DNA from: a virus
Reading direction: 5' to 3' (one strand)
IMG/VR virus record: IMGVR_UViG_3300025161_000009
Location: 1-53,777 of that record
Length of the DNA stretch: 53,777 nucleotides
Below, one piece after another: positions 1 to 53,777 of this stretch. Both the position numbers and the translations under genes were made by a program. The notes beneath the pieces are model-generated. The model saw only the letters and a program-made list of their open reading frames with translations, did no database searches and had not been told where the DNA came from. How positions within the stretch are numbered: position 1 is the stretch's first letter; each line of letters opens with the position of its first letter.

Positions 1-663
1 AGAGAAGGCATGTCTCCTCTCGACACAAGAGGGGCACCTTCCACAAGCAGGCATACTAAGACTACTCCCTTCATAGCAGGTCCATGTTAGGTGGTAGGGC
101 ACACCAATCTCAAGTCCTAACTTGACTATCTCCCACTTCATCCACCAAGAGAATGGAGTAATAAGACGTACTTTATGGTATGTCCCGATATAGATAGCAC
201 TGCCCATGGACCCAACAAACTCTGGGGTGCAGTCAGGATAAGCCCAATTCCGAGCATCCTCTGCATGGATCCCTGAGTAAACATACTCAGCATCTACAGT
301 CAAGGCGACAGCAGAAGCGATAGACAGGAAGATGGCATTTCTAAAGGGTACATAGGTGGGAGATACTCCAAAGGACTCTTCTATCTCCTTATAGGTCATG
401 TGAGGGTTAGGAAGCATCTCACCTACTAGAGTTGACTTAGCCCCTTGGAAGACCTTGGTATCAATTGAGATCTTCCGGTGGCTTTCTACATGGTAGTAGT
501 TGTTAATCATGTAGGCTGCCATTACCTCCCGCATCTTATGCTTCTGCCCGTAGTCAAAAGAGATAGTGGTTATGTCCCCAGGGTCAGTTCCATTAGCAAT
601 AAGGCTGCCTAGAACTGTGGCAGAGTCAAGCCCTCCAGATAGAAGTACTACCGCCTTAGCCAC
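1..663 (-). CDS. queC: QueC, 7-cyano-7-deazaguanine synthase (continues across window end)
   Basis: QueC converts 7-carboxy-7-deazaguanine to preQ0 using ATP and ammonia. Translation from a GTG at 663 begins MAKAVVLLSGGLDSAT, the N-type ATP-pyrophosphatase P-loop (SGGLDS). Near the window edge comes a four-cysteine zinc site, CYEG...CGRCPSCVERR. The GTG has a good ribosome site (GGGAGG) and overlaps the upstream transporter gene by 8 bp, so the pair is translationally coupled. The frame is still open at position 1. If position 53777 is joined to position 1, it continues for 11 codons (residues EDPIKY...) to a TGA at 53742. This gives about 232 residues, the normal QueC length, with the expected DPxxY C-terminus. 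Confidence 0.95.
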   Translation of the reverse strand, partial: MAKAVVLLSGGLDSATVLGSLIANGTDPGDITTISFDYGQKHKMREVMAAYMINNYYHVESHRKISIDTKVFQGAKSTLVGEMLPNPHMTYKEIEESFGVSPTYVPFRNAIFLSIASAVALTVDAEYVYSGIHAEDARNWAYPDCTPEFVGSMGSAIYIGTYHKVRLITPFSWWMKWEIVKLGLEIGVPYHLTWTCYEGSSLSMPACGRCPSCVERRHAFS

Positions 664-1231
664 CTGAAACCTCCCAAGGCATATAGACACCCCGGGTATG
701 GTCGATCTTCCGGATAGCCCAGACAACAGGCAAAGCGAGTAGGGTCATCCACATCTTCCCAACTACTTGCCCCAGTAGAAACTCAAGTGAGCCGAAAGCT
801 AAGAACAGGAAGACAGCAGAGTCAACTATAACTCCCACTGTGTTACTTGCGACTACTGCAAGGTACAAATTTTTCTTCTGGATGGGGGTGTAGACAACCA
901 GATCGAGCATCTCTGATACTAGGAATGCTCCACCTGATGCCAGAGCAATGGCAGGAGACAAAAAGGCAGATAGTACTGCACCTATAAGGATGGCAGCGCT
1001 TGACCACCCAGGTCCTTTACGCCTTTGCACAAGATCCCGTAAGGTAAAAGAAAGCCCCACTGCGAGTACTCCTGATGGAGCATACAACCCAAATCCAACA
1101 GGGATAACATAAGGGGGACCAGCCTCAGATGTAGGGGTACCTACATGAGTGATGAGGTAGTTGGCAAACCAGACAGTAGAAATGAAGAGTAGGAAGTAAA
1201 TCCAACCTTCAACATTCAGTTTCTTTTGCAT
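656..1231 (-). CDS. queuosine-precursor (preQ0) transporter, YhhQ/VUT family
   Basis: A 191-residue integral membrane protein with five to six hydrophobic segments. It resembles the VUT/YhhQ family, which imports queuosine precursors such as preQ0 and preQ1. Family-like features are the small-residue-rich segments (SPAIALASGGAFLVSEMLD) and a polar SNTVG segment before the last helices. Its place directly upstream of queC, with overlapping ends, supports a role in supplying 7-deazaguanine for phage DNA. The ATG at 1231 follows a GGAG site. The family assignment rests on composition, topology and context. A generic small transporter is the alternative, but the queC neighbourhood makes that less likely. 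Confidence 0.8.
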   Translation of the reverse strand: MQKKLNVEGWIYFLLFISTVWFANYLITHVGTPTSEAGPPYVIPVGFGLYAPSGVLAVGLSFTLRDLVQRRKGPGWSSAAILIGAVLSAFLSPAIALASGGAFLVSEMLDLVVYTPIQKKNLYLAVVASNTVGVIVDSAVFLFLAFGSLEFLLGQVVGKMWMTLLALPVVWAIRKIDHTRGVYMPWEVSGG

Positions 1232-1330
1232 GACAGTTCTCCTTCAGTTTTGAGATAGGTTATCTGAAATACTACTAGCTCGGGATTAGCGAGAAACCTT
1301 GATAATCTGCACCTCCGTAGAACAAAAGTT

Positions 1331-1404
1331 TGCCTGTAGGGTAGTTAAAGTTTGTAATAAAGCAAGCTTCCCACTCACCAATATTATCTTCTACCCTACA
1401 GGCA
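1331..1404. repeat. 14-bp perfect inverted repeat
   Basis: TGCCTGTAGGGTAG at 1331-1344 is matched by its exact reverse complement at 1391-1404. The 46-bp spacer is AT-rich. It may act as a long-range RNA stem in the transcript running toward the transporter gene, or as a protein-binding site. There is no U-tract typical of an intrinsic terminator. Confidence 0.65.
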
Positions 1405-1416
1405 TTAGGGTTGGCG

Positions 1417-1449
1417 CCAAGCAGTTAACAGGTCTTGTTACCTGCTTGG
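1417..1449. repeat. interrupted hairpin
   Basis: CCAAGCAG (1417-1424) pairs with CTGCTTGG (1442-1449). Inside, TAACA pairs with TGTTA after one mismatch, leaving a 5-nt loop. It lies 70 bp from the stop of the DUF669-like gene and could mark transcript processing or termination. Confidence 0.6.
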
Positions 1450-1517
1450 TTCTGCAAAGGGGGTTGAGCCTGGATCCAGTTTATACCGAACTAGGATGGG
1501 CTACCCCCTTGTGCATT

Positions 1518-10486: not shown

Positions 10487-11161
10487 TCACTCCTCTTCAG
10501 TTAGGTTGGCAAGTTCTTCAAGTTTCTGTATCCATGGATCAAAGGCTGACTGGTCAAGTCCTCTTTCTCCTGCCTTACTCAATGCCTCGATAAGTTTCTT
10601 AGCAGAACTTGAGATCTCCCGGCGCCCGTAGTTCCTAGTAACCTTCCTGGTATGCGCCTCAGCCCGATCTTTTACCTCCTGGATCCTCTTTGCAACCTCC
10701 TTGTCTGCACCCAGCCGCTTGAGGATACCAGTAATGGTCATGACCCCGATTCTCCTCTCCCAGGATGACCCTTCATAGGGTTTCCGTTTGGTCCAGATAG
10801 CGTCTATTGCACTACCCAACTCTGGACCCAGGTGGATGTATCCATGCTTGAAGTCCCCTGCTTCTACAAGTGCATAGAGGGTTACTGGTTTCCTTGGGGG
10901 TTGCAGTTTCTTTAGGTCTTCTACTGCTTTCTTCTCCTCAGGGGTAAGCTCATCCTCCGAGTACCAGAAGTAGAGCTCACGACCGATAACAGCCTCGAGT
11001 GCATCCCACTTCTCTTCCCATGCCTTGCCTGCCTCAGGGTCAATGTAGACCTGGTCACTGCGGTCTACCAGACTCCACTTGTTGGTATTATAGGGGTTAT
11101 TCAGTACAAAGTTTACCATGTCTTCAATAGAATTAAATTCAACAGACTTGTTTCTAGCCAT
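10487..11161 (-). CDS. paralogue 2 of the Toprim-flanking gene pair (224 aa)
   Basis: Clearly homologous to the product at 12778-13419. Shared blocks are an N-terminal EFNSIEDMVNFVLNNP (compare EFNTTDDIINYLIENP), DPEAGKAWEEKWDALE (compare DPEAGNAWTEEYNAMQ), a LGPELGSAIDAIWTKR block and ILKRLGADKE (compare ILKRLGLDSG). The C-terminus is a charged helix. No family recognised. It is translated from an mRNA with a structured leader (11162-11263) matching the leader of its paralogue, and follows the Toprim gene. The genes probably act with that protein. Confidence 0.75.
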   Translation of the reverse strand: MARNKSVEFNSIEDMVNFVLNNPYNTNKWSLVDRSDQVYIDPEAGKAWEEKWDALEAVIGRELYFWYSEDELTPEEKKAVEDLKKLQPPRKPVTLYALVEAGDFKHGYIHLGPELGSAIDAIWTKRKPYEGSSWERRIGVMTITGILKRLGADKEVAKRIQEVKDRAEAHTRKVTRNYGRREISSSAKKLIEALSKAGERGLDQSAFDPWIQKLEELANLTEEE

Positions 11162-11263
11162 TTTACACCTCCTAAGTGTAATAAAAAGTAGGTTATACCG
11201 GCTTCACACCGGCACAGGGTGGATTTCTCCACCCTTCACAGGTCTGCCTGCCTGTTACAGGTC
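11162..11263 (-). promoter_or_regulatory. structured leader A (paired with leader B), RBS in hairpin loop
   Basis: The mRNA leader carries, in order: CCTGTAACAGG, CCTGTGAAG, a 7-bp variable stem (plus arms GGGTGGA 11217-11223 and TCCACCC 11228-11234), CCTGT, a CCGG...CCGG hairpin (11198-11212) with loop TGTGAAG, and a 6-bp hairpin (11163-11181) whose loop TTAGGAG is the Shine-Dalgarno. Leader B has the same order, with compensatory base changes in the variable stem and in the RBS hairpin. ACAGG can pair with either flanking CCTGT, so alternative folds are possible. Confidence 0.75.
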
Positions 11264-12754
11264 TTACCAGGTAATAGCCTCATTGGCCAGTTTGTCCAGA
11301 AGTTCTACTTGGGATTCTCTTACCCAGTCAACCATTCTCTGGGTCCTAAGTTCACTAGAGAATGGCCTCCAGACGGTTCCCCACCCTCTAGTTGCTGCTT
11401 CCTCTAGATGAGCTTTAAGATCATCAGGGGTAGGATCTTCTTCCTCGTCCTCCCAATCTGACTCGTGACCCTCAACCACATCTTCAAGTGCCTGCTCTAC
11501 CTTGCGCTCGAACTCTGCCTTGATAGCATTCAGTCGGTCAAACTCCCTTAGAAGTCCCTGGTAGTAGTGGTTCCTGTTGATAATCTCTGAGGTAACCATA
11601 TTTACTGCCTTCCTACTATCTGCAGTGCACTCCTCACGTAACTTGGATACAATATACTCAAATGGAACCACCCGCATAAGGGCATCAGCTATCAAGGTGT
11701 AGTAATCCCGGGTTCTAAGTGCTTCAACTTCAAACCCGTGAGGTGTGCTATCCTTGGACAAGCTCACTGGATCACCACATTCTGGACAATGGTGACCATC
11801 CCTGCCTTCAATTGAAAACTCAGTTCTACAGTTCTGGCAAGTTGACTTGTAGATCGCCTTCACCTCAGCCCAGTCTTGGTACCCTTTGTTACTAACCTTG
11901 ATGCTGTACCAGGCATCTTCCCAGGTGCGTCCAACATTCAGAACATCTTCTGGTTCAATCCCTATCCGTGCCTCGTAGATGTAATCTGAGTAGCGGGTGC
12001 ACTGCTCACCAAAGGTAGGACCGATGACTGCCTCACCATCATAGTCGTAGTCACTAATGTGAAGTACGACTAGAGGTGTGCCCGTAGTAAACGGGTTATT
12101 CCATTCTGACCAACCAAACGCCTCACGCAGGACTTTCTCAATCGCTGCCTTGCTGCTCTTGCCCTTACCTGAGTAAAGTGCTCTAGCACCAATTGCCTCT
12201 GCCGCTGCCTTGAAGTCCTCAAAGAGTGAGTCCTTTTCCACGCAGATCATCAGATTTAGCCCCTCGAATAGAGGTCTCCAGATCCTTTCAACCATCCGGG
12301 AAGCATCCTCGACCCATAAGTCCTTGTAAGTCACTTCCCCAGAGTCAACCAGTTCTGCATAAGTCTGGCTCAACCGGGATACCCAGTCATCATCCGTGAT
12401 CTCTTTGACACCTTGGGAGTTGACAATGTAGTCACCCAATTGCATCGCTAGGGGTTGAGCAACTTCTGACTTGAAGTAACTGTACCAATGACGGCGTAGT
12501 GCCTTGGGTCTTCCATCGCCCTCAGGGCCCCCTTGTTTATCGAATACTGCCATCTGGCAGATAACTGCCACTCTGCAAACTGCTACCCGGTTGAAGCCAG
12601 GTAGTGACTTGTACTTCTCAACAAAGTCAGAATCCTTGAGTGCCCTGGTAACTGGATTGTAGAGTCCTGTATGAAATCCATCCCATGCACCTGGTATCTC
12701 AGAGAGAAGTCTGCGTCCAAAGTTATCTAATTGGTTATACCAACTGGTAGTCAT
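11264..12754 (-). CDS. Spo11/TopoVI-A-like Toprim protein with zinc ribbon (496 aa)
   Basis: The N-terminal region has KALRRHWYSYFKSE (about residues 84-97), resembling the catalytic-tyrosine motif of topoisomerase VI A/Spo11 (Tyr91 or Tyr93). A Toprim domain follows: CVEKDSLFEDF (Glu173) and HISDYDYDG (Asp235, Asp237, Asp239). A zinc ribbon sits inside or just after it, C306xxC309 and C323xxC326, and the C-terminus is an acidic coiled segment. TopoVI-A/Spo11 proteins cleave both DNA strands through the tyrosine. No B subunit (GHKL ATPase) is visible in the window. It is flanked by two paralogous genes with matching RNA leaders. A DNA-cleaving or nicking role in replication or recombination is inferred. 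Confidence 0.7.
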   Translation of the reverse strand: MTTSWYNQLDNFGRRLLSEIPGAWDGFHTGLYNPVTRALKDSDFVEKYKSLPGFNRVAVCRVAVICQMAVFDKQGGPEGDGRPKALRRHWYSYFKSEVAQPLAMQLGDYIVNSQGVKEITDDDWVSRLSQTYAELVDSGEVTYKDLWVEDASRMVERIWRPLFEGLNLMICVEKDSLFEDFKAAAEAIGARALYSGKGKSSKAAIEKVLREAFGWSEWNNPFTTGTPLVVLHISDYDYDGEAVIGPTFGEQCTRYSDYIYEARIGIEPEDVLNVGRTWEDAWYSIKVSNKGYQDWAEVKAIYKSTCQNCRTEFSIEGRDGHHCPECGDPVSLSKDSTPHGFEVEALRTRDYYTLIADALMRVVPFEYIVSKLREECTADSRKAVNMVTSEIINRNHYYQGLLREFDRLNAIKAEFERKVEQALEDVVEGHESDWEDEEEDPTPDDLKAHLEEAATRGWGTVWRPFSSELRTQRMVDWVRESQVELLDKLANEAITW

Positions 12755-12777: not shown

Positions 12778-13419
12778 TTACTCGTCTTCTAGGTTTTCTG
12801 GATTGGTCAGTGAAAATTCCAGAGTTAGTCCTAAGTTCCTAGCCTTCTCGACCTCAAGGAGTAGCTCGGCATAAAGGTTCCGTATCCGGGCCCTTTGAGC
12901 ATTCCGCAAATCTTTCTTCTGAGTAGCCTCGATCTTCTCCTGGGACTCTTTCAATTTCTCAGACAGTCCAGAATCCAACCCCAGTCGCTTCAGGATACTT
13001 GGAAGGGTCATTGCCTGGGACCGCTTTGTCCAGAAACTGTCAATCAAGGCTCCTAACTCATCAGACAGGTTAATCACTATCGGCCGGTACATAGTAGCTT
13101 CTGAATGTTCTAAACGGTAATGAGTAACCTCGTGCTTTGCAGGCATCCTCTGGACCAGTTGAGACAACTGGTTGCGCTCCTCTTCAGTTAACTCAGTATC
13201 CCAAGACCACAGAAAGCGCTTACTACCGTCTGGTCCAGGAGGCAGGTTGTCTTGCATTGCGTTGTATTCTTCAGTCCAAGCATTGCCTGCCTCTGGGTCT
13301 TTCCATTCCATAGAGTGGTAGGTGAGTACCTTCCACTTCATCTCAGAACGGGAAGGGTTCTCAATCAGGTAGTTGATAATGTCATCAGTTGTATTGAATT
13401 CTTTCGGTTTAGTAATCAT
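12778..13419 (-). CDS. paralogue 1 of the Toprim-flanking gene pair (213 aa)
   Basis: The start is ATG at 13419 (MITKPKEFNTTDDIINYLIENP), directly after the AGGAGG held in the leader-B hairpin; an upstream in-frame start at 13500 lies inside that RNA structure. Homologous to the 10487-11161 product over most of its length, including the DPEAGNAW block, NLSDELGALIDSFWTKR and ILKRLGLDSG. It ends in a basic helix. Not assigned to a family. Its place before the Toprim gene, with the copy after it, points to gene duplication around that gene. Confidence 0.75.
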   Translation of the reverse strand: MITKPKEFNTTDDIINYLIENPSRSEMKWKVLTYHSMEWKDPEAGNAWTEEYNAMQDNLPPGPDGSKRFLWSWDTELTEEERNQLSQLVQRMPAKHEVTHYRLEHSEATMYRPIVINLSDELGALIDSFWTKRSQAMTLPSILKRLGLDSGLSEKLKESQEKIEATQKKDLRNAQRARIRNLYAELLLEVEKARNLGLTLEFSLTNPENLEDE

Positions 13420-13530
13420 CTCACACCTCCTAAGTGTGGAATAGAATTTGCCGGCTTCACACCGGAACAGGCAAGAGGAGTAATTTCCTCTTACCTTCAC
13501 AGGGTACTGCCTGTTACAGGTAATAAGAAA
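13420..13530 (-). promoter_or_regulatory. structured leader B, RBS in hairpin loop
   Basis: Same architecture as leader A. The RBS hairpin is CACAC/GTGTG with loop TTAGGAG (13422-13438). The CCGG hairpin at 13451-13465 has the identical loop. The variable stem AAGAGGA/TCCTCTT (13473-13479 and 13486-13492) replaces GGGTGGA/TCCACCC, keeping all seven pairs. CCTGTAACAGGCAG precedes it, and AACAGGCA can pair over 8 bp with TGCCTGTT, closing the variable stem. It most likely controls translation of the downstream paralogue. Confidence 0.75.
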
Positions 13531-32341: not shown

Positions 32342-32344
32342 ACT

Positions 32345-32442
32345 AGCACTGTTATAATCTCAAGTTCCACTGTTAGAAGATACCTGTCACTGGTTACTTG
32401 CGCATATTACTCTGTAATATGCGCAAGTAAACAGTGCTTCCC
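32345..32442. repeat. palindromic element copy 1 (17-bp arms), upstream of protease gene
   Basis: Outer CACTG/CAGTG (32388-32392 and 32432-32436), one mismatch, then a perfect 17-bp arm pair: TTACTTGCGCATATTAC (32394-32410) and its complement (32414-32430), with a 3-nt loop. Preceded by CACTGTTAGAAGATACC (32368-32384) and followed by CTTCCC. The same arrangement, inverted, occurs at 44727-44775 with a different inner arm sequence. It fills the gap between the beta-helix and protease genes. Confidence 0.8.
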
Positions 32443-34972: not shown

Positions 34973-37900
34973 TTAGTCCTTCCTTGCCACAAAAGCAGTA
35001 AAATTCCCACCAAGGATAACCATCTCCCTCTCACTTAGACACCCAATACCAGACATAGCAGTAGAAAAGATGTTAGAAATAGGAACCTTTATACCAAGGG
35101 CTACATTCCCAAATATCTCAGTTGTACCAGGTCTGGTAGTCCAGGATTCTAAGCAGTTACCCTGGTACTCAACAAAGGTCCCAAAGTCCACATCTCCAGG
35201 GAAGTGGATACCTCGGTAAAGGTAAATCTCATCATCCCCCTTGTACCCCTGGGACTTGAAGAAGTCTTGAGTCTCATCATAAACTGCTCTAATAAACTTA
35301 TCATAAGCCCCAGTTTCCCTCCAAGTCTCCGCTGCCTCCCATTCCTCTAGAAGGTCCATCTTATCTGGTATCCAAGGTGCAAAGAGAGAGTCATACCTTC
35401 TAGTAGCACCCTCCATCCTCTGCATTGCCTCATTTGCTTCCTCAGTCATCCCTCTACTTAGATAATAGGAGGCATCATCCCCTGCCTTGACAATTTCTCT
35501 GACTAGCATAGCACCTTCTTCTACTGCTGCATACCTCTCTTTCTGCCACTCTGAGAGTTCCGTTCCAAAAAACTCAGATGCTGCTAGTTGGAGGTTGAGT
35601 GAGGCTGGGCTATTATCATTTGAAGATCCAGCCCAAGACTTTACCAGATGGTTACATGTTTCATAGTCTAAACCAGATCTGCCTGACAACCCCTTTATTA
35701 CCATATCTTTTGTCTTAGATGAGCCATATTCATCCATCCACCTGTGAGTAAGATCAAGGTGTTTCTGGTCCACTGGCCAGTACCCTGGACTAAACCTATT
35801 AGCTAGGACTTTAGCCCGGTCCTCAGCATTAAACATCTTTATCTGCCCTCTAGGAGTTTTGCCCCCTACCCCTCCTAGCTCCTTCTCCCTGTCTCTCAGA
35901 TCCCTGTAGAGTGCAGCTTTAGCCTCAATCTCATCCCTACTACCACTAGTATAAGAACTCACTCCTATCTTAGAAAAACCTCCACCAGGTGCTGACCCTC
36001 CATGCTGGCCAGGAATTCCATCATGCCCCCAATTGCCAGAAGTAGGTCCACCCTCGGATGTTATCTCTAGAGTAACTTTGATAAACTCAATGGGCTCATC
36101 CTCAAGGGCAACAGCCGGAAGAACCTCCTGTATTCTAGAGTACTCCTTGCATTGCTCAGGGGTGTAGTAGAACACAGATTCATCTTGACCCTGCACCATA
36201 CCCAACTTCCTGTAGAACCCCATAGCAGATTCTGCAGATACTAGTATCACCCCAGAGCCTGCCTTTGCCGCTCTGTCTACTATATCCTGCATAATTTGCC
36301 TACCCCATCCACTTTCACGGGTAGCAAGGTCCATGATCTCAATGTACTTACCATCAGGAATTCCCTCTCCAAAAGTGCTCTTTACCTTGTCTGGGCTCAA
36401 CTGCCTTATCTGGGCAACTGCTGCCAGTTTACCCTCGCTATCTACAATCGCCACCCCTTTAGCACCTTTGGACTTCCACCCAAAGGAGGTAGCCCGAGCA
36501 CCAATAGATGCCCGTTCACCCTCCCATCCCTTTACCTCCTCATGGAAGGCGTCTCCCTTAGGAGACCCGGGCTGGAAGGAGACTGGTTTGCCTGAACTAG
36601 CAGACCCTCCATGTTGTCCAGGTACTCCTAGGTGGCCAAAGTTACCAGAACCTTGACCACCTTCAGATAAACTGGAAGCATCTGACTCTCTCAACTGACC
36701 ATTGTATACTCCTGAGGCAGACAAGAACTCATCCCGGGTAGCCCGTATAATCCCCCTGCCTTCACTCTTTGAGTCATCTGCCTGCTCAAACCAAGATATC
36801 TCCTTGCCATCCTCAACCTTTATTCTGTCATCAAGTATAAGGTTCTGGAGACGCTTGAGCTCCTTTGTATTGAAGTACCCAGTCATTATAGCAACACTCT
36901 TATCTGGGAACTCTCTTACCCTGATAACCCCAGCCTTGAAGATCTTGTCTATTGCCCCCTTCATATTACCAGGTTCCTGGTCCTCCTTGGTCAGACCTAA
37001 TGCCTCGGGAGTTGAGGTATTCTTAATGTAGTTGAAGTGGTCCCCTTTTGCATCAATGAGTATCCCATCTGGATTTACTAGATATGCCTTTCCAATGCTA
37101 CTGGATGAAATCTCATCATAAGAACTAACTGCTCCTTCTATCTTGGGTGCAGACCCACCATGTTGACCAGGCACTCCCACATGGCCAAAGTTACCAGAAC
37201 CAGGACCACCTTCAAACAGAGACAGGTACCACAGCTCATGGGCAACCTCAGTAGCTTGGGGACCTGTGAAAATATCCCCATCAGGGTCAAGCAAGATATG
37301 CCGACAGCGGTACCCCTTGCACTCAAAGTTCTCATTCCCAGATTGCCCTGGGATTAGCCCATTCTCTACCCACCACCTGGCAGGATAGGTCTTCCCCTTG
37401 AGGTACTGGCATGTACTACAGGACTCCTCTCCATCTTCACCCCCAAAGGTCAAGGGCATCTCAAGTGCCCCCCGAACCCTTGCCTCAGAGTAAATACCAT
37501 CTAAGGTGTGGGTGTACCCCTCAGCCCTTGCCCAGATCCACTCTGCTACCTCATCTGGGTCTAATTCCCTCTTGAGTGACTTAAGGTCTTCCCACAGGCC
37601 GTCTGCATACCCTGACTCAGTTTCTATTCTACCTACTAACCAGGTAACTGCCTCATCCGGTATCTCCCCTCCCTTAGAATCTGCCCAGCCTGTATAGAAA
37701 GTTATGGTAAAGGCGTCATTAACAGCCCGGCGGAACTGGTTCCGGAAGCGGGTTATACTAGGATTTCCAGGGGAGGTCAAGTAGTCGAGCATAATATAAG
37801 ACAGAGTCTCTTGATACTCTAGCTTTATCTCTGATAACGATTGACCCAAAGAGAACTCCCCTGCCTTAGGGGCGAATCTCTCTAAAGGTCTTGAAAACTC

Positions 37901-39070
37901 CCGTAAGGATACACTCCCACCTAAAGTAGAAACTTTAGTTGCTAACATAAGAGCATCCCAAGTATCCTGGAGGTACCCATTAGTCCCATCCCACTCTATC
38001 TTGTCAGACTTAGGGAGTTTCCCCTGGTCATACAGATTCTGGAGCTTTCTAAGGGTTTTAGTGTCAATCCTCTCAGTTTCTAAGTTGAGATAACTGGGGC
38101 CTCCAGTAACCTTCACACTCCTTACCCTGATAAACCCAGCCCTCTCCACCTTAGTAAGGGGAGATCCCCTCCGTAGATCTTCTGGTTTCAATCCAAAGAC
38201 TTCAGGGTTCCCCCTCACAAAGTCCTCATGGTCACCCTCACCTTCAACCCCTGGTTGGTTTGTATCTACAAGCTGCCCTCCAGGGGCTATAAAATAAGAA
38301 GCAGAAGTAGCCCCTTTTAGATCTACTTTAGTTATCTGGTCAAAGGTCTCCTTATACTCTATAGAAACCGATCCAGGAGTGGATCCCCCTTGTTGCCCTA
38401 GTATCCCGGAATGCCCAAAGTTGCCAGATCCAGGGCCTCCCTCGGATAAATCCTCAGGGTCTATCAGACGGGGTTTCCACTGTCTCATCCCTCCCCCTAG
38501 GATGAGTATCTGTTGAGGAGAGAACACTCTAACCTCCCCAGGCATGACAATAGCATCATACCCAAGAGATCTCAATGCTCTAGAGTAATCCCCCATCAGA
38601 CCAGGGTCCAAACCCCTCTTCCCCATGTACTCTAGGACATCTGGGTTCTCCCACCCCCCATCAGTCAGGACATTATAGGGGTTAGATGAGAAGACCTTTA
38701 CCGCAACTACCATTCCATCATCCCCAGTATAGTCAGCAGCATACTTGGGGTCAAAAGAAAAAGAGATCCCCTCATCATCATTTAGTTCATCCGTGGACAC
38801 TTGGAAGCCTTGGTTGATAATATCCTTGTAGTGAGGAGACCCATGGTACAGAGTATCTTTTACCCTGCTCTTCTCTACGAACTTCTCTCCATCAGAGTCG
38901 AACCCATACCGGGTACCAGTAGGCAGTAACCTGCCCACTTTAGGTGGTCTAACAGGCATACCCCCAGTACCTGCTTTTGACCCTCCCTGCTCACCTGGGA
39001 TACCCTCATGCCCCCAGTTTCCAGAACCGGGGCCTCCTTCTACTAACTTTTGGTAGAGGCTCTCCCTCAT
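34973..39070 (-). CDS. giant multidomain minor head protein: two ART domains, MuF-like domain, GNAT (1365 aa)
   Basis: Five Gly-rich linkers of the GGPGSGNFGH type (residues about 11, 210, 620, 803 and 1006) separate distinct domains. Residues 65-193 resemble an ADP-ribosyltransferase of the polyvalent-protein type (LYHGSP, FDPKYAADY, GYDAIV). 236-375 and 645-790 are two related copies of an unknown domain. 375-617 is an SPP1-gp7/MuF-like minor head domain with CSTC and CKGYRCRH cysteines. 825-975 is a GNAT fold (VAIVDSEGKLAAVAQI, SGWGRQIMQDIVDRA, FYRKLGM). 1250-1360 is an R-S-ExE ART (Arg1286, Ser1309, Glu1347 and Glu1349). It follows the portal gene with a 4-bp overlap. Packaging and injection into the host are inferred. 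Confidence 0.8.
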   Translation of the reverse strand: MRESLYQKLVEGGPGSGNWGHEGIPGEQGGSKAGTGGMPVRPPKVGRLLPTGTRYGFDSDGEKFVEKSRVKDTLYHGSPHYKDIINQGFQVSTDELNDDEGISFSFDPKYAADYTGDDGMVVAVKVFSSNPYNVLTDGGWENPDVLEYMGKRGLDPGLMGDYSRALRSLGYDAIVMPGEVRVFSPQQILILGGGMRQWKPRLIDPEDLSEGGPGSGNFGHSGILGQQGGSTPGSVSIEYKETFDQITKVDLKGATSASYFIAPGGQLVDTNQPGVEGEGDHEDFVRGNPEVFGLKPEDLRRGSPLTKVERAGFIRVRSVKVTGGPSYLNLETERIDTKTLRKLQNLYDQGKLPKSDKIEWDGTNGYLQDTWDALMLATKVSTLGGSVSLREFSRPLERFAPKAGEFSLGQSLSEIKLEYQETLSYIMLDYLTSPGNPSITRFRNQFRRAVNDAFTITFYTGWADSKGGEIPDEAVTWLVGRIETESGYADGLWEDLKSLKRELDPDEVAEWIWARAEGYTHTLDGIYSEARVRGALEMPLTFGGEDGEESCSTCQYLKGKTYPARWWVENGLIPGQSGNENFECKGYRCRHILLDPDGDIFTGPQATEVAHELWYLSLFEGGPGSGNFGHVGVPGQHGGSAPKIEGAVSSYDEISSSSIGKAYLVNPDGILIDAKGDHFNYIKNTSTPEALGLTKEDQEPGNMKGAIDKIFKAGVIRVREFPDKSVAIMTGYFNTKELKRLQNLILDDRIKVEDGKEISWFEQADDSKSEGRGIIRATRDEFLSASGVYNGQLRESDASSLSEGGQGSGNFGHLGVPGQHGGSASSGKPVSFQPGSPKGDAFHEEVKGWEGERASIGARATSFGWKSKGAKGVAIVDSEGKLAAVAQIRQLSPDKVKSTFGEGIPDGKYIEIMDLATRESGWGRQIMQDIVDRAAKAGSGVILVSAESAMGFYRKLGMVQGQDESVFYYTPEQCKEYSRIQEVLPAVALEDEPIEFIKVTLEITSEGGPTSGNWGHDGIPGQHGGSAPGGGFSKIGVSSYTSGSRDEIEAKAALYRDLRDREKELGGVGGKTPRGQIKMFNAEDRAKVLANRFSPGYWPVDQKHLDLTHRWMDEYGSSKTKDMVIKGLSGRSGLDYETCNHLVKSWAGSSNDNSPASLNLQLAASEFFGTELSEWQKERYAAVEEGAMLVREIVKAGDDASYYLSRGMTEEANEAMQRMEGATRRYDSLFAPWIPDKMDLLEEWEAAETWRETGAYDKFIRAVYDETQDFFKSQGYKGDDEIYLYRGIHFPGDVDFGTFVEYQGNCLESWTTRPGTTEIFGNVALGIKVPISNIFSTAMSGIGCLSEREMVILGGNFTAFVARKD

Positions 39071-40736: not shown

Positions 40737-42056
40737 TTAGTACTCCACTCCAATCCTTACTGGGTTATAGATAATCTGCTCCTGGTCCTCCACAGGTGAC
40801 CCCAGTAACCCCGTCACCATGTACCGCAGGCAGTCCAAGAGATGGAAGCTTTCTTTGTTCTCTATTGCATCAGTCGGCATAGAGTTCTTGTCCACAACAC
40901 GCCGGTAGGTACCAATCTCTGAGAGTAAACCGATACAGCCTTTATGGATAAACAAGACCCGGGAGCGGAACAGTTGAGATACTCTGTCAATGCCTGCCCA
41001 AACGTCAGTAACCCCAGGTGCCTCAAGGGGTAAACCCCAACCTGACCAGTCTACTCTAGCCTGGCGTTCTGAGGGACCCCCACCAAACCAGCGCCAGATT
41101 GTCTCATCCCGTGAGAGGTCTAGTATGTTCTGGACATGCCCACCTGTGGTAAGCCCATACGGCTGCATGTACTCCCGGTAGATATGCAGGGTCCCATTCT
41201 GAGGGTCATAGGCTCCCCACAGACAAGCCACATAGGCACCCAGAGGGTCAATGCCGACTACTCTTGGCCAAGTGAGGGGTGGTACAAAGGAGTCAATAGT
41301 ATTATACTCCTCATCAAAGCTCTCATAGATGGCACCCTCAGGTACCACCCACAAGCCCTCAAGGAGCCTTGCCCTCCGGTTGCCAGACAGCTTCCCTAGA
41401 ACTGCTAAGGTCCTATTCCCGGCAGATGTCCATGCCTGCCTTTCCTCATCCCACAACATGGGGTTATCCTTGTGCTTGCTATGGAGTAGAGTTAGGTCCC
41501 CCTGCCTAGACTTAGACAGGATCCAGTGGGTTGGAGCAGACGGGTTGCAGTCCCCAATCAGCTGGGGATAGAGAATATTACCAGCACGCCCAGTGGCACG
41601 GGTTGAGAGCACCTCCCACTCAGCTAGGGACAGCTCCTCACACTGGTTGACATAGATCAAGTCCCTTTCTGAAGAGAGCACCTTGTCCGGGTTGTCCATC
41701 CCACCTACCCAGACCTGAGACCCGTTGGGGTAGTTATAAAGTTCAGGCTTGGACCCACCAAGCATAACTACCCGAGTCCCCCTCCCAAGCACCTTCTTGG
41801 AGTATGTCTGAAGAACAGACCCTGCCATACTCCGGTACGTCTTGCGGACAATAGCAATCTGGGCTCCTGGGTACTTCCAGGCAATAGCATCCAACTTGTG
41901 GAGGCAGGCCAGAGTCTTACCCGTCTCGGAAGGTCCCTCAATCACAACCTGCTGGTCATGGTTAGACCAGAGCTCCTTGGCTGCCCCTTTTGGGCGGTAT
42001 GCCCCAGGGACATTTGAGTCATCAGGTAACTCAGCCAAGATAAAAGAGGTCTTCAA
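40737..42056 (-). CDS. terL: terminase large subunit (439 aa)
   Basis: An ATPase domain with Walker A EGPSETGKTLACLHKL (about residues 39-54), a Walker B-like LIYVNQCEE and a nuclease half (VVGIDPLGA, HLLDCLRYM). The length of 439 residues is typical of the PBSX/XtmB type. This motor cuts and packs the DNA and probably does headful packaging, given the circular map. It follows the endolysin gene, an uncommon order. Confidence 0.9.
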   Translation of the reverse strand: MKTSFILAELPDDSNVPGAYRPKGAAKELWSNHDQQVVIEGPSETGKTLACLHKLDAIAWKYPGAQIAIVRKTYRSMAGSVLQTYSKKVLGRGTRVVMLGGSKPELYNYPNGSQVWVGGMDNPDKVLSSERDLIYVNQCEELSLAEWEVLSTRATGRAGNILYPQLIGDCNPSAPTHWILSKSRQGDLTLLHSKHKDNPMLWDEERQAWTSAGNRTLAVLGKLSGNRRARLLEGLWVVPEGAIYESFDEEYNTIDSFVPPLTWPRVVGIDPLGAYVACLWGAYDPQNGTLHIYREYMQPYGLTTGGHVQNILDLSRDETIWRWFGGGPSERQARVDWSGWGLPLEAPGVTDVWAGIDRVSQLFRSRVLFIHKGCIGLLSEIGTYRRVVDKNSMPTDAIENKESFHLLDCLRYMVTGLLGSPVEDQEQIIYNPVRIGVEY

Positions 42057-43572: not shown

Positions 43573-44145
43573 TCAGAGGTCCTCATACCGGACACCCTGA
43601 ACTACCTTTACAATGACATCTCCTAAGTCCTGGAGGTCTATAGTCTCCCCCCACAGCTTTAGGTGTTTACCCAGTATCTCTAGAGCCTTCTGGGCGTCAT
43701 ACAGCTCAAAGGTGAACTTCCCCTTATCCCAACCTACTTTCTTAATCAGATACCCCTTCTCCTTGACTAGGTCCCAATTTACTTCCCTGCCGACTACCTG
43801 CACCGTACCATCTGGTTGGATCTCAAGGACCTCCTTGAAGAAGTCGGCAATGTTAGCAGTAGCCTGCTCAGATAGCCTATGCAGTATCGAGGGCCCAGAA
43901 AGTACCTGGTTAGCAAGCTCTTGGTCAATGATCTCCCGGATATGGGGTTTACCAAGATAAAGAGAAGACAGGGATCTAGCCCTCTCAGGAGTAGTCGCCC
44001 CAGCCTCATAAGCTGCCTTTACTCCATTCAGAGTCTTCAAGTAGGCTAGCACGAACTTCTTCTCCCTACCTGTTAGTGGGACCATCTTTGTCTCCCCAGT
44101 ATGGGGATCCCGGTGGGGCTTCTTCCAGTTAGAAAGGCTTAGCAC
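43573..44145 (-). CDS. terminase small subunit (190 aa)
   Basis: Starts at GTG 44145 after AGGAGG. The N-terminal helix-turn-helix region (LTGREKKFVLAYLKTLNGVKAAYEAGAT, YLGKPHIREIIDQEL) and the block DAQKALEILGKHLKLW match Terminase_2/XtmA. It recognises the packaging site and loads the large subunit. It lies before the lysis genes and then the large subunit, so two lysis genes separate the small and large terminase subunits. Confidence 0.85.
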   Translation of the reverse strand: MLSLSNWKKPHRDPHTGETKMVPLTGREKKFVLAYLKTLNGVKAAYEAGATTPERARSLSSLYLGKPHIREIIDQELANQVLSGPSILHRLSEQATANIADFFKEVLEIQPDGTVQVVGREVNWDLVKEKGYLIKKVGWDKGKFTFELYDAQKALEILGKHLKLWGETIDLQDLGDVIVKVVQGVRYEDL

Positions 44146-44202: not shown

Positions 44203-44688
44203 TCAGTCCTCAGGTAGAGAGACAGCTGTCCACCCGTCCCACCACTCCAGGGTACCATTAAGTAACTTCAAGGCGGTCCTGTACTTCATACCAACTTTCT
44301 TGCAGACCTCCCGTATTTGGTCAGACGTCTTGAGGGGTCCATAGATATCCCCCACAGGGGACTCCAGGTAGTACTCTAACTCAGGAGGCTTCCAAGGGAT
44401 AGCATCCATCAAGTCAAACTCATCTGCCTTCCGCCACCCTTTCGAACTCTGGTACTCCCCCTTATCTACAGACCTCATGTTGTTAGGTTCCAACCCGAAC
44501 TCTCTACAGAAAGCAGCCAGGTTAGTGATAGGTCCATACACTACCCCATCAGGGGAGACAAACCCTTTCCACACCTTCTGGTGGATCTTTGCCATCTTCT
44601 CTGCAAAGGCTCTGGACCTCCTTGGGATGGACCTTTTAGGTCTTTTCTTTAGGTCCCAATCTGGCTCAGTTCTATAAAGTTTTTCCAT
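44203..44688 (-). CDS. NUMOD-like DNA-binding repeat protein (161 aa)
   Basis: Two copies of a motif about 55 residues long: SPDGVVYGPITNLAAFCREFGL and SPVGDIYGPLKTSDQIREVCKK, each followed by a W/GWR-type end. This resembles NUMOD1-like helix-turn-helix modules of phage homing endonucleases, but there is no nuclease motif (HNH or GIY-YIG). The N-terminus is basic (KKRPKRSIPRRSRAFAEK). It is the first gene after the palindromic element and may regulate the late unit or bind packaging DNA. Confidence 0.6.
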   Translation of the reverse strand: MEKLYRTEPDWDLKKRPKRSIPRRSRAFAEKMAKIHQKVWKGFVSPDGVVYGPITNLAAFCREFGLEPNNMRSVDKGEYQSSKGWRKADEFDLMDAIPWKPPELEYYLESPVGDIYGPLKTSDQIREVCKKVGMKYRTALKLLNGTLEWWDGWTAVSLPED

Positions 44689-44702: not shown

Positions 44703-44843
44703 AACACTGGTAACTCCTTACCCTAACACTGTTTACCCGTTTGTATTACATAGTAATACAAACGGGTAACCAGTGACAGGTATCTTCTAACAGTGCTTCT
44801 TGAGATTCTAACAGTGCTAATCCACTGTTAGAAGATACCCCTA
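44703..44843. repeat. palindromic element copy 2 plus CACTGTT/AACAGTG words
   Basis: CACTG (44727-44731), mismatch, 17-bp arms TTACCCGTTTGTATTAC (44733-44749) and complement (44753-44769) with 3-nt loop, mismatch, CAGTG (44771-44775). It is the inverted counterpart of copy 1 at 32345-32442. It is followed by GGTATCTTCTAACAGTG (44779-44795) and its inverted copy (44823-44839). Further AACACTG words lie at 44703 and 44725. It is upstream of the NUMOD-like and terminase genes. Confidence 0.8.
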
Positions 44844-49003: not shown

Positions 49004-51481
49004 CTATCCCTCCCATTTCTTAAGATGCCCCCAGCGGTCCCCCCATTCTAAGTCTACCTTGAAGGGTATCTCCCCAGGGTCAATAATCTGAATAGTTTCC
49101 ATAGTTTTAACCATCAGTGGGGCAACTTGGGGGACAAGTTCCTCCTTGCAGAGAACCATGATAGAGTCATGCACTAAGAATAGTATCCAGGCACCCTCTT
49201 TAGGAAGAAGAGCATGGAGCCTTACTGCAGAGTCCAGGTTGATATCCGATGCCAACCCCTGGATGGGAGTATTGACAGAACGCCTTTCTACGTCCCCTCT
49301 GTTCTTGTAGAAGATAAAGGGGAAGCGCCTACGCCTGCCTGTTGCTGATTCTACATACTTGTACTTATGGACAAACTCGTGCTGCTTCCTAATCCACTCC
49401 TTGAACCCAGGAGTACTATCTAGGATACCTTCTAGTATTTCCTCAGCCTGTTTTAGTGTCCAGGACTGGTTATACTCAGTTGCGAGTATCCTTGCCTCAA
49501 TACCCTCCACAAGAGATTTGGCACCACGTCCATAGAGTACCCCGAACCTGAGACACTTAGCAGCATACCGCTCACCTTTTGAGATCTGGTCTGCAGGCTT
49601 ACCAAAGACAAAGCTAGCAGATTCTGCATGGATATCTCTACCATCCTTGAAAATCTGGATCATGGTAGGATCTTGGGAGTAGAAGGCACCCACCCTAAGT
49701 TCGAGTTGAGAATAGTCTGCTAGCAGTAACTTGTACCCCGGGGGTGCGATATAGGCATCTCGGATTAGTGGCCCCATCAGCAAGGGTTGGTTTTGAGGGT
49801 TAGGGTCTCGGTAGGCTATCCGCCCTGTGTCTGTCCCATGGATCAAGACGTCAGGTCTAACCCTCCCATCTGGGTCTAGCCGGTTGAGCACACCCTCAAG
49901 GTAGGTTGAGATGACTACTCCAACCTGCCTGTAGTTTATGAGTGTCTCAATAAACTCACGGACCTCAGGTGACCAGTCATGCCCTCCTTTCTCAAGTTCA
50001 AGCGACAGTTCTGTCTTACCTGTAGAGGGGACCATAAAGCCCATGTCTTTGAGAACCTTCTTTACCTGGACATGGGAGCCTGGGTTGAAAGAAGGCACCC
50101 CATGAGCCTCAGCTATACGGGTAAGCGTCTCCTTGAGTGAGGCATGCTCAACCTTCTTCTCTGCAAGGAGCTCCTCCATGTAAGGGACATCTATTGGGAT
50201 GCCTGTCTTTTCTACCTCGCAGAACATTCTTGCCGCAGGGATAAGTTGCCTTTCAACTAGAGTTAGTAACTTAGGTGACTCCATCGGGAGTTCTTGATAA
50301 AGGTCTTTATACAACCTGAGTGTGAAGTAGACATCCAATGCCTGGTACTCATACATGGTCTGGTAGTCCCGCTCCTCCTCCGGCAGTTTGAAGAACTTCT
50401 TGAAGTCAAACCCATAGTGAGTATCATAGCGGACCCTAACTTGGGTCTTAAGGCTAGAAATGGAGTAACTCCTGCCTTTAGGGGCTTCTATACTGGGGTC
50501 ATCTCCTCCTATCCCCCTCTCATCCTGGGCATACTGCATTAGCATAGTATCTGCTATCCTTGGGGGCTGGATCTCCTCCTCCAACCACTTTTGGAGGAAC
50601 TGGAGATCGAACTTGAAATTGTGCATAACGAGGAGGTGCTTGTCAGATTTAAGTAGCCTCTTTACTGCACTCTTTACTTCAGGGTCCTGGGCACTACTAA
50701 AAGGTATGATGGCTGAGTATCCGATTAGGTTGGCCTCGTCAAGAAACACCCCAAACCCTAATGATATAGGTTGGTCATAGTAGTATGAGAACCCGGTAGT
50801 TTCTAAGTCGCAGGAGACAACAGGGAACTCATCCAGTGTATCTAGCAGGTTGATAATCTCTCCCTTCTCAGTACAGATAGCCACCTCAACCTGGGTAGGC
50901 TCCATAGGAGTATCCCTTGTAGCAAGTTTATAGGTATCAGATGCAAAGTCACGGAACAAGTCCCATCCCCGTAGTACCGCAGAAGGGTGGTAAGTTGCTA
51001 CTCCAAAGGCTTTGTAAGGCACTTCTACTAGATCCTCTTCACCTAAGACGGTCTGCATACCAAACTCTATCCATTGCCCCATGCCCTGGTTCTCTGAGAT
51101 CTTAGCAATCTTTCCAGGTGAGATCATTGCTTGAAGAGCAGTGCCTCCTAACATGAGTATCTTCCTAGGATTGACATCCATCAGTTCATTAATCAACCTA
51201 CCATTGCAAGCAAGTACTGCTTTAGGAGTGGGAGTAGCATTATCTGGAGGTCTGCACAGGCAGGCATTAGTGTAGTAGACCTCATTGGGGTCAATTCCTA
51301 CTGCCTTCAAAGTGTCCCTCAAGAGCTTTCCAGACTCACCTACAAAGGGCTTTCCCTGGAGTACCTCATTCCTGCCTGGGGCCTCACCTAAAGCAACTAT
51401 CCCGCCCTTCCTTCCGTACCCTAGAACAGGCGGACAGTCCCTCAGGGGACACTTCTCACAACCTGAGTAGTTATCTATCAT
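49004..51481 (-). CDS. uracil-DNA glycosylase fused to family-A DNA polymerase (825 aa)
   Basis: Residues 1-195 are a family-4 UDG: CEKC near the N-terminus, ALGEAPGRNE (30-39), GKPFVGESG, TNACLCRPP and YHPSAVL (164-170). Residues 220-380 form a 3'-5' exonuclease (CDLETTG with Asp225/Glu227, then MHNFKFDLQFL). Residues of about 400-825 are the polymerase, with ADYSQLELRV, AAKCLRFGVLYGRG and FLVHDSIMVL (motif C His-Asp). Both halves look intact. It replicates phage DNA while the UDG part probably removes uracil. The ATG overlaps the upstream stop (ATGA). Confidence 0.85.
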   Translation of the reverse strand: MIDNYSGCEKCPLRDCPPVLGYGRKGGIVALGEAPGRNEVLQGKPFVGESGKLLRDTLKAVGIDPNEVYYTNACLCRPPDNATPTPKAVLACNGRLINELMDVNPRKILMLGGTALQAMISPGKIAKISENQGMGQWIEFGMQTVLGEEDLVEVPYKAFGVATYHPSAVLRGWDLFRDFASDTYKLATRDTPMEPTQVEVAICTEKGEIINLLDTLDEFPVVSCDLETTGFSYYYDQPISLGFGVFLDEANLIGYSAIIPFSSAQDPEVKSAVKRLLKSDKHLLVMHNFKFDLQFLQKWLEEEIQPPRIADTMLMQYAQDERGIGGDDPSIEAPKGRSYSISSLKTQVRVRYDTHYGFDFKKFFKLPEEERDYQTMYEYQALDVYFTLRLYKDLYQELPMESPKLLTLVERQLIPAARMFCEVEKTGIPIDVPYMEELLAEKKVEHASLKETLTRIAEAHGVPSFNPGSHVQVKKVLKDMGFMVPSTGKTELSLELEKGGHDWSPEVREFIETLINYRQVGVVISTYLEGVLNRLDPDGRVRPDVLIHGTDTGRIAYRDPNPQNQPLLMGPLIRDAYIAPPGYKLLLADYSQLELRVGAFYSQDPTMIQIFKDGRDIHAESASFVFGKPADQISKGERYAAKCLRFGVLYGRGAKSLVEGIEARILATEYNQSWTLKQAEEILEGILDSTPGFKEWIRKQHEFVHKYKYVESATGRRRRFPFIFYKNRGDVERRSVNTPIQGLASDINLDSAVRLHALLPKEGAWILFLVHDSIMVLCKEELVPQVAPLMVKTMETIQIIDPGEIPFKVDLEWGDRWGHLKKWEG

Positions 51482-51870
51482 GGCTTCTCCTTTGGGTTCT
51501 TCTTACAAACTCCAGAATCAGAAGGTCTTGATAATCCAAAGTACGCCCTTACCTTGAGCCCACAGTACTCACATCTATAAGTTTCGGTTAGATCTGAATG
51601 GGTTACTAGGTTATCTCTAACCCACTTATGAGGTCCAAAACTCTCATTTGGGTTAGCCCCTGCATATTTTATCTTGCCTCCAGGCAAAGTTATAGTATAA
51701 CCCAGTCCAGGGAATCTGGTACAGACACTCTTTAGCCAGTATACTGCCTCAGAAGGTGTCTGAAAAACCCTCACTGTACCCTTAGTAGTATAGAAGTAGT
51801 CTCTAGAGTCCTCATCCTGTAGGGCATATTTGCCTTTATATGGTACTACTTTTACCTTGATACTAGTCAT
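51478..51870 (-). CDS. small protein with C-terminal zinc motif (130 aa)
   Basis: The start is ATG at 51870 (MTSIKVKVVPYKGKYALQDEDS) following GGAGGG; a longer upstream start at 51909 is less likely. The N-terminal half is beta-rich. The C-terminus has CEYCGLKVRAYFGLSRPSDS with a later Cys-Lys-Lys, a likely zinc knuckle. It overlaps the polymerase ATG. Function unknown; a role beside the polymerase is possible. Confidence 0.55.
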   Translation of the reverse strand: MTSIKVKVVPYKGKYALQDEDSRDYFYTTKGTVRVFQTPSEAVYWLKSVCTRFPGLGYTITLPGGKIKYAGANPNESFGPHKWVRDNLVTHSDLTETYRCEYCGLKVRAYFGLSRPSDSGVCKKNPKEKP

Positions 51871-52036
51871 TACTATCACCCTCCAGATACAAGAAGATAC
51901 CAAAACCAATACTAGGAGACAGAAGGCATACTAGTAATGGTTTCATCCCCAAGGATACTAGAACTAGACCTACAAAGGTAACTGAAACTAGTATCTTGAA
52001 GTAAACCTTCAAATTGTCCCACCAGCTTTCCTCCAT
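51863..52036 (-). CDS. tiny two-helix membrane protein (57 aa)
   Basis: MEESWWDNLKVYFKILVSVT is followed by two hydrophobic stretches (VTFVGLVLVSLG and PLLVCLLSPSIGFGIFLYL). The ATG at 52036 is immediately before the DpdA stop region; the stop overlaps the next gene's start by 8 bp. A small single-operon membrane protein with unknown role, matching a second one at 52840-53016. Confidence 0.5.
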   Translation of the reverse strand: MEESWWDNLKVYFKILVSVTFVGLVLVSLGMKPLLVCLLSPSIGFGIFLYLEGDSND

Positions 52037-52843
52037 TTATACAACTCCATTAGTTATAGAGTCAAAGATGCTAGTATTATGCCTAGCTATCTCCAGCCCC
52101 TCAGGGGTAAACTCATAGTGAAAGTAGTTCTCAGGGCGCCTCGGGTACTCAGGTACTACAGAAGTCACAGGATCCAAGGCAATCTGGGAGGTAGCATAGA
52201 CAAGAGGCTTAGCAGAGTCAATAGAACGGATTCTACCACCAAAGTCCTCTGCTATCTTTTTATATGCCCACAGATCACGCCCCCACCCAAGGAGATGGAT
52301 ATCTGCATGGTAGTAGTCAGCCCAAGGGATTACATAGTCTTTGATAATCCGGTAAAGACCCCCATCAAATATCTCATAGTCTTTTGAGACCCCTAGAGTT
52401 ATTCCCTTACTTAGAAGTAAGGGAGATTCCCTTCTTACCATCTCTATAACAAGCCCCAAGGTATGTAGGCATGCAGAGAAGTCCTCCTCATCCTTACCTT
52501 GGGGGACAAGCATCCAGTGATAAGGGTACAGCGACTTTGTCAGTTCCAGGAATGAGTTAAGAGCCATAGTTGAGGTAGCTAGTCCGTCAAAGAGCTTGTC
52601 TGGTATAACGATCTCTGATGCCCCTACCTGAGGTGCTAACTCAAGTAATCTCTGGATAGGTTGCCCCACCTTAAACTCATGGGCAGAGTTGTCCAAGATA
52701 ATGTGAGACCCATTTTCTGACTCTGACTTGTAAAACTCTCTATAGTCAGATGATAACTCTACCAGGTGGGCAAGGATAAGGTGGTAGTCCCTACCTTTTG
52801 CTAACTCAAGGTGCTTGATAGGGGGGATTATAGTGGATTTCAT
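52037..52843 (-). CDS. dpdA: DpdA-like 7-deazaguanine DNA transglycosylase (268 aa)
   Basis: A TGT-superfamily enzyme that would exchange guanine in DNA for a 7-deazaguanine base. Visible features: an ILDNSAHEF segment (Asp51), a TIM-barrel strand order, HADIHLLGWGRDLW, and SIDSAKPLVYA near the end, all fitting the TGT/DpdA group. The ATG at 52843 overlaps the upstream stop as ATGA; a start at 52879 is less likely. It lacks the zinc-binding tail of tRNA TGT, which favours the DNA-type short phage forms. The adjacent queC and queF genes support the assignment. Whether it uses preQ0 or preQ1 is not shown. Confidence 0.8.
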   Translation of the reverse strand: MKSTIIPPIKHLELAKGRDYHLILAHLVELSSDYREFYKSESENGSHIILDNSAHEFKVGQPIQRLLELAPQVGASEIVIPDKLFDGLATSTMALNSFLELTKSLYPYHWMLVPQGKDEEDFSACLHTLGLVIEMVRRESPLLLSKGITLGVSKDYEIFDGGLYRIIKDYVIPWADYYHADIHLLGWGRDLWAYKKIAEDFGGRIRSIDSAKPLVYATSQIALDPVTSVVPEYPRRPENYFHYEFTPEGLEIARHNTSIFDSITNGVV

Positions 52844-53016
52844 AGCCCCTCCAGTAAAGGTATTCTGAGTACAACCCATATAGTTAGGATGCTCCCAACT
52901 ATACCAGCAATGAAAAGAACCACCTGGAGTTTCTTAGTAGGCATAAAGGGGGATACCAGTAGCATACTAAATGATAGGAACCCAAAGGCAAGTAGTAGTA
53001 CTAAAGTTTCTAACAT
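52840..53016 (-). CDS. tiny two-helix membrane protein (58 aa)
   Basis: MLETLVLLLAFGFLSFSMLL and a second helix (LQVVLFIAGIVGSILTIWVV), with MPTKK between. The start is ATG at 53016 after AAGGAG. It is placed between the MazG-like gene and dpdA; its TGA overlaps the dpdA ATG. Role unknown, perhaps with the transporter. Confidence 0.5.
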   Translation of the reverse strand: MLETLVLLLAFGFLSFSMLLVSPFMPTKKLQVVLFIAGIVGSILTIWVVLRIPLLEGL

Positions 53017-53020
53017 GTTG

Positions 53021-53302
53021 TCATTTCTCCTTAACTTTGATATAAGCAAGTAGGAACCCAGCATAGTTCAGAATATCCTGTGCCTCTTCAACTACCTTGT
53101 TTAGGTTCCCAGCCATCTCGTACCCTACAGAACGGGCTGCCTTAGTAAAGATAATTCCTAGTAGGTCTTGTTCTCCGTGAGGCCACATAGCAGTTATGGG
53201 GAGAAATGAATTCTCCCCATTCTCAGACTGCTCAGTGACCCTACTCATTGCTCTCTCGATCTCATCTCTGAAGACCTTGAGAAAAGTAGCGTCATCTACC
53301 AT
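53021..53302 (-). CDS. MazG-like helical protein (93 aa)
   Basis: The C-terminal EEAQDILNYAGFLLAYIKVK segment resembles the acidic helix of MazG/all-alpha NTP pyrophosphatases and related DUF1599-type proteins. The N-terminal half has DEIERAMSRVTEQS and a TAMWPHGEQDLLGI loop. A nucleotide-cleaning role before DNA synthesis would fit the operon but is only inferred. The ATG follows GGGGGA. Confidence 0.5.
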   Translation of the reverse strand: MVDDATFLKVFRDEIERAMSRVTEQSENGENSFLPITAMWPHGEQDLLGIIFTKAARSVGYEMAGNLNKVVEEAQDILNYAGFLLAYIKVKEK

Positions 53303-53310: not shown

Positions 53311-53745
53311 CTAAATCTCTAGTGTGAGGTTCTGGACAAGATCTAAATAGCGACTGGCAACTACTGTTATGGCGATTCCACCTCTTGGCTTGAATACTCC
53401 AGTCACTTTTACATGGACAGGGGCAACCTCCTTCATAAAAAAGTCAGCAATCTCATTGATAATCTTCTCATGGAATGCCCTTTCATTTCTGAAGGACCAC
53501 AAGTACAGTTTCCAGGACTTGGACTCTACAATCTTTTCTACTGGGGAGTACTCAACAGTGATAGAAGCAAAGTCGGGTTGCCCAGTTACTGGACACAGGC
53601 AAGTAAACTCGTCTGAATGAAGGGTGATGGTACAGTGTTTACCAAACGCTGGGTTAGGGAAGCATTCTATCTGCTTCATAGGCTCAAGAACCTTATTACC
53701 TAGTATAGTTAGAGTGGGGTATTCAGGGTTTATGGCATTGCTCAT
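53311..53745 (-). CDS. queF: QueF, NADPH-dependent 7-cyano-7-deazaguanine reductase
   Basis: 144 residues, the short QueF type. The catalytic centre is TCLCPVTGQPDFA (Cys51, Asp58). The NADPH-binding QueF motif ESKSWK is at 74-79, followed by LYLWSFRNE, FHEKIINEI (His92, Glu93) and a PRGG loop. It reduces the nitrile of preQ0 to the aminomethyl of preQ1. The intact QueF motif favours true reduction over the archaeal QueF-like amidinotransferase. The ATG overlaps the queC TGA (ATGA) when the window ends are joined. Confidence 0.93.
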   Translation of the reverse strand: MSNAINPEYPTLTILGNKVLEPMKQIECFPNPAFGKHCTITLHSDEFTCLCPVTGQPDFASITVEYSPVEKIVESKSWKLYLWSFRNERAFHEKIINEIADFFMKEVAPVHVKVTGVFKPRGGIAITVVASRYLDLVQNLTLEI

Positions 53746-53777
53746 CTTAAATTCTCCTTGTACTTTATAGGATCTTC
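53742..53777 (-). CDS. queC: QueC C-terminal 11 codons (completion of the gene at 1-663)
   Basis: Reading from 53777 downward gives GAAGATCCTATAAAG and further codons (EDPIKYKENLR, then TGA 53744-53742). Joined to the open frame ending at position 1 (CVERRHAFS), it gives a normal QueC C-terminus with DPxxY. This supports circularity or circular permutation of the molecule. Confidence 0.85.
   Translation of the reverse strand, partial: EDPIKYKENLR

Follow-up and report, generated by a model that had tools for sequence, protein, structure and literature searches.

The 53,777-base virus record analysed here (the window, meaning the whole stretch; G+C 46.6%) is very probably a nearly complete unit of a circular genome map, opened within queC and lacking about 12 bases at the opening, most likely packaged by a headful mechanism and carrying one operon that runs across the join. 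The unit appears to be that of a tailed bacteriophage, and the place of opening would probably have no biological meaning. This is an ordinary way of recording a phage genome, and recognizing it is useful for judging completeness. Closing the circle turns a record that has no end repeats into a nearly complete genome and brings together a DNA-modification operon whose parts seem separate in the record.

The queC reading frame across the two ends

The sequence-only reading had proposed that queC is cut at position 1 and is completed in frame from position 53,777 by 11 codons containing DPIKY, with its TGA forming an ATGA overlap with queF. Translation of the frame bore this out. The minus-strand frame runs from GTG at 663 to 1 and then from 53777 to 53742 as a single frame of 232 residues, ending RRHAFSEDPIKYKENLR followed by TGA; the codons added beyond position 1 encode EDPIKYKENLR, and the TGA at 53744-53742 overlaps the queF ATG (53745) as ATGA. 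Comparison of the joined protein with QueC proteins, which had been suggested as a check, gave a match to Pfam QueC PF06508 over almost the whole model (positions 1-208 of 210, E 7e-54). The two parts of the gene are:

1..663, minus strand: first 221 codons of queC, cut by the record start (GTG start at 663; assigned by frame and by the PF06508 match of the joined protein)
53742..53777, minus strand: last 11 codons of queC and TGA, placed beyond position 1 once the map is circularised, with probably 12 bases missing in between

A chance match had been called very unlikely, and this held in part. Among 107,434 continuation points on both strands, 130 reached DPxxY in the first residues before meeting any stop codon. 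In 37 of these a stop followed within 19 codons, and only two also had ATGA at that stop, probably the same real site at two codon offsets. By profile, however, the directly joined tail was unexceptional. Scored on a QueC profile made from the relatives (69 viral, 15 cellular), the window being left out, 800 of 61,571 stop-free continuations outscored the direct join, and random tails came up to the score of the direct join in 30 of 2000 draws. When four unknown residues were placed at the join, only 2 of the 61,571 continuations scored higher, both of them queC's own NWAYPDC core, and the places that beat or equalled the real one in the exhaustive scan were those two and the real site. Random tails that carried four unknown residues came up to the real score in 2 of 3000 draws. 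The join is real, and the most fitting reading is that it keeps the frame but lacks about 12 bases.

Bases probably missing at the join

A seamless join was at first accepted, and was then rejected on the spacing of conserved residues, on the profile peak described below and on the exhaustive scan. In 62 of the 69 distinct viral relatives, drawn from the best 80 of 85 loci, DP starts exactly at position +6 counted from the F that is conserved in the C-x2-C-x2-C-x2-R-x3-F region, and the other seven have D at the same place. The motif was found in 15 of 16 cellular relatives, all 15 with DP at +6, and was not found in the frame of the remaining one (L160). In the joined window D stands at F+2, with the shortfall exactly at the join. 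The profile score, calculated with 0 to 8 inserted unknown residues, showed a single clear peak at four (301.6 bits, compared with 292.6 at zero). From DP to the stop there are eight codons both in the window and in the relative L003, and both stops overlap the queF start. These sequence comparisons suggest that the record probably lacks 12 bases, or four codons of queC, between its ends. Candidate causes would be assembly, trimming or a local coverage hole. A cut gene should thus be checked against the residue spacing of its relatives before a circle is declared seamless.

Gene order in relatives

Viral contigs were scanned with the joined QueC, and the best 80 of 85 loci were used. A scan by QueF alone gave no confirmed relative among viral contigs, and synteny was therefore taken from the QueC relatives. 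In 62 of these best 80 of 85 loci, homologues of left-end genes lay upstream of queC and homologues of right-end genes downstream, contiguously and on the same strand; nine other loci showed the left-end side only, eight the right-end side only, and one neither. The genes concerned are:

7282-8307 and 3999-4400: two left-end genes with homologues upstream of queC
4442-6088: left-end helicase, homologues upstream of queC
3026-4009: left-end exonuclease, homologues upstream of queC
2041-3012: left-end Sak4-like gene, homologues upstream of queC
1518-2030: left-end SSB-like gene, homologues upstream of queC
right end: queF, 53021-53302, the DpdA-like gene, 51478-51909, the polymerase and the primase, homologues downstream of queC

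Three IMG/VR relatives, L002 (19.6 kb), L003 (21.8 kb record) and L010 (53.65 kb record), whose QueC is 59%, 51% and 48% identical to that of the window, have the same early-gene order as the window through queC and dpdA to the polymerase. In L003 the transporter, queC and queF overlap directly in that order, as the join predicts. Two extra genes separate queC and queF in L002, and queF lies upstream of queC in L010; adjacency of queC and queF is thus not universal. Cysteine-rich ORFs lie between the queC/queF genes and dpdA in L010 (11127-11813) and L003 (about 11218-12643), with homologues in two other related records (G003 and G007) and none detected in the window.

A search with the terminase large subunit (TerL) of the window at E 0.001 gave no match in 18 related records, and structural genes could therefore not be used for placing the openings of these records. 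L002, L003 and L010, the first two of which are fragments, gave no TerL match at this threshold.

Taken as sequence evidence, the in-frame queC join and the synteny in 62 of the best 80 of 85 loci place the two record ends as neighbours on a circular phage genome map, as had been proposed. The earlier estimate of a unit of roughly 53.8 kb stands insofar as the record is close to one full unit and is a nearly complete genome; the seamless join probably does not stand, and the unit would be 12 bases longer (about 53.79 kb).

Two other readings of the join were weighed against this one. That the ends are not adjacent, the record being a linear fragment and the in-frame match a coincidence, would agree with the direct tail scoring below 800 other places, but it is contradicted by the conserved gene order and the ATGA coupling, and the tail is the best in the whole window, queC's own core excepted, once four residues are allowed; we give this reading almost no weight. 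That the circle is seamless and the QueC of this phage has a genuine four-residue deletion is improbable, though considerably less so. The frame is kept, the alignment shows another small length difference in the window QueC 16-19 codons upstream, and the C-terminal tail differs in E. coli and B. subtilis QueC, for which the PDB alignments end ahead of the tail. Against this, the six-residue spacing is found in 84 of 84 motif-bearing relatives, and a deletion would need to coincide precisely with a record end that is arbitrary. Since a unique deletion at that very place is less likely than a loss of bases from the record, the deficit was read as belonging to the record.

End repeats and completeness

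There was no exact end match of 5-399 bases in the window, and the outer 2 kb at its two ends had no 14-mer in common. The window record therefore lacks the end overlap that is a sign of circular assembly; this is a property of the record rather than of the map, but it sets the window apart from many relatives and counts against the preferred reading. So does the result that no scanned viral contig spanned the join itself when gaps of 0-30 bases were allowed, in a collection that may omit records very near the window. Of 31 related records in which both ends were read (29 QueC-bearing records longer than 40 kb and two found by TerL), 15 had an identical sequence of 22-127 bases at the two ends or close to them, and in nine of the 15 it was 123-127 bases long. 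The CheckV report attributes repeats of k-mer-like lengths to the assembly of templates that are circular or of genomes that replicate as concatemers (PMC8116208). The opening point varies among related records, with queC at 16.4, 20.8, 26.0 and 32.8 kb in G005, G007, G012 and G014, respectively. As described in the same report, the repeat-based test of CheckV seeks repeats of at least 20 bp (PMC8116208), and a repeat-based closure test would leave the window record unclosed.

Terminase and packaging

Headful packaging had been presented as fitting the circular map, and as a consequence of the map it does not follow: fixed terminal repeats and cohesive ends also give circular maps, and a circular map alone does not show headful packaging. 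We therefore turn to the terminase genes, which are:

40737..42056, minus strand: large terminase subunit (phrog_2, E 2.8e-19)
43573..44145, minus strand: small terminase subunit (phrog_51, E 3.5e-19), 9.6 kb from the join

The closest TerL in the phage collection was that of Thermobifida phage P1312 (33% over 90%), and the Streptomyces cluster BG phages YDN12, TP1604 and Xkcd426 gave 34-36% over 67-69%. In a 17-row TerL tree the window fell in a five-row clade (96/97) with P1312, YDN12, Xkcd426 and Dagobah, on a long branch of the kind about which the tree program warns. P1312 was described by its authors as a 60,284-bp circular assembly with P22-like headful packaging, for which circularly permuted terminal redundancy was inferred and cohesive ends were excluded by a cooling test (PMC4569894). 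Its G+C is 65.9%, compared with 46.6% in the window, and its packaging, unlike that of the window, is backed by restriction patterns. All cluster BG genomes are circularly permuted according to their description (PMC5511901); these phages differ from the window in hosts, in gene content and in their linear record convention. Cluster BP phages, more distant TerL kin, are likewise given as circularly permuted (PMC9583777). Dagobah is recorded with a short 1-kb DTR, that is, fixed terminal repeats (PMC7650747), and the passages of PMC11536984 on the BG-like phage Geonosis state no genome ends. The clade thus leans towards headful packaging yet includes a phage with fixed repeats.

With moderate confidence, we favour headful packaging on these sequence relationships. 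Most likely, the phage DNA would be linear and circularly permuted, packed by a headful terminase, and reads from many permuted molecules would overlap to give a circle. The same circle could instead come from molecules with fixed ends, either direct terminal repeats that the assembler collapsed or cohesive ends that became joined in replicating DNA, with the record opened arbitrarily elsewhere. CheckV's authors note that circular maps arise from concatemers as well (PMC8116208), and Dagobah of the same clade has its 1-kb DTR; the closest kin, P1312, and the third-scoring kin, cluster BG, are however headful or circularly permuted according to their authors, and we consider fixed ends the less likely arrangement, though one of appreciable probability. 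Far less probable is that the record ends are themselves physical ends, formed by a cohesive-end site within queC whose 12-base 3' overhang was removed by end repair before sequencing. Abutting ends with a 12-base deficit and no repeat are what a trimmed 3' overhang would leave, and, if this were true, queC would be broken in the virion and whole only after the injected genome circularises, tying DNA modification to circularisation. The site, however, lies 9.6 kb from the small terminase gene and within a coding gene, 62 of the best 80 of 85 loci run through the region unbroken, and no cluster of contig ends was found at the queC/queF border, where only 1 of these 80 loci ends at most 600 bases downstream of the queC match. 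In the TerL tree, moreover, the window stood apart from the 3' cos phages HK97 and PSA, on long branches. The HNH label of the ORF at 44203-44688 was not used as a cos sign: the match is confined to residues 36-87, which on inspection look like a DNA-binding rather than a catalytic part.

A probable operon across the join and predicted DNA modification

Under the preferred reading of a circular map with a short deficit, the genes near the two ends form a single run, which comprises the two parts of queC given above and the following features:

1232..1517, minus strand: 286-base gap upstream of the transporter, set by ORF limits, a possible operon start
656..1231, minus strand: putative queuosine-precursor transporter (PF02592, E 7e-12, above cut-off), with an 8-base overlap with the queC start
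53311..53745, minus strand: queF of the preQ1 synthase type (TIGR03139, E 1e-40, above cut-off; PF14489, E 3e-28)
53021..53302, minus strand: 93-residue protein without a Pfam match, found downstream of queF or queC in relatives (68% in L002, 44% in L010)
52840..53064, minus strand: small ORF of 74 residues, overlapping its neighbours
52037..52879, minus strand: DpdA-like transglycosylase, assigned by fold match only

Because of the overlaps, the short gaps and the same transporter-queC-queF order in L003, the transporter, queC, queF, the two small genes and dpdA likely form one operon across the join, in agreement with what had been read from the two ends, and synteny gives this further support. 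The operon perhaps starts in the gap at 1232-1517. A search of that gap for promoter-like sites on the minus strand gave none, and promoter and terminator scans at both ends gave numbers of sites similar to those in shuffled sequences, within about one standard deviation.

The transporter scored 47.3 bits against TIGR00697, just under the cut-off of 50.95, and also matched phrog_4899, whose function is not annotated. The DpdA-like protein had no sequence match in Pfam, NCBIfam or PDB; its AlphaFold model (pLDDT 91.6) had tRNA-guanine transglycosylases as the best PDB folds (E 8.6e-8, TM 0.5-0.6), and the modelled fold suggests that the protein may exchange guanine in DNA. Of the components of preQ1-type modification, QueC and QueF are both present, and the DpdA transglycosylase is recognized by its fold only. 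FolE, QueD and QueE were not detected in the window at E 0.01 (tblastn with L002 and L010 proteins), so that QueC would depend on a host-made precursor; L002 and L010 carry all three, unlike the window. G002, which holds L003, also lacks FolE, QueD and QueE.

Streptococcus phage Dp-1, like the window, groups genes for QueF, QueC, a transglycosylase and a queuosine transporter in a single cluster, and its QueC is 43% identical to that of the window; the Dp-1 cluster also holds QueD, QueE and FolE, and its gene order differs. According to the published account, Dp-1 DNA carries dPreQ1 (PMC6884629). By analogy, the joined operon should serve to introduce a 7-deazaguanine, probably preQ1, into the DNA of the phage.

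Other features of the window

No tRNA genes were found in the record by ARAGORN. Two 93-base elements, 32344-32436 and 44727-44819, are 82% alike in inverted orientation, each forming a near-perfect hairpin in the gap just upstream of a minus-strand gene. The ORFs at 10487-11161 and 12778-13500 look paralogous by eye. They have in common a leader and ribosome-site region, repeated at 11159-11218 and 13417-13471, and lie on either side of a 496-residue ORF which contains DYDYDGE, presumably a TOPRIM-like motif. A 1365-residue ORF (34973-39070) has five copies of a 66-base repeat encoding a GGPGSGNxGHxG-type motif. The gene at 49004-51481 encodes a single protein that combines a family A DNA polymerase with a 3'-5' exonuclease domain and, at its N terminus, a uracil-DNA-glycosylase-like domain.
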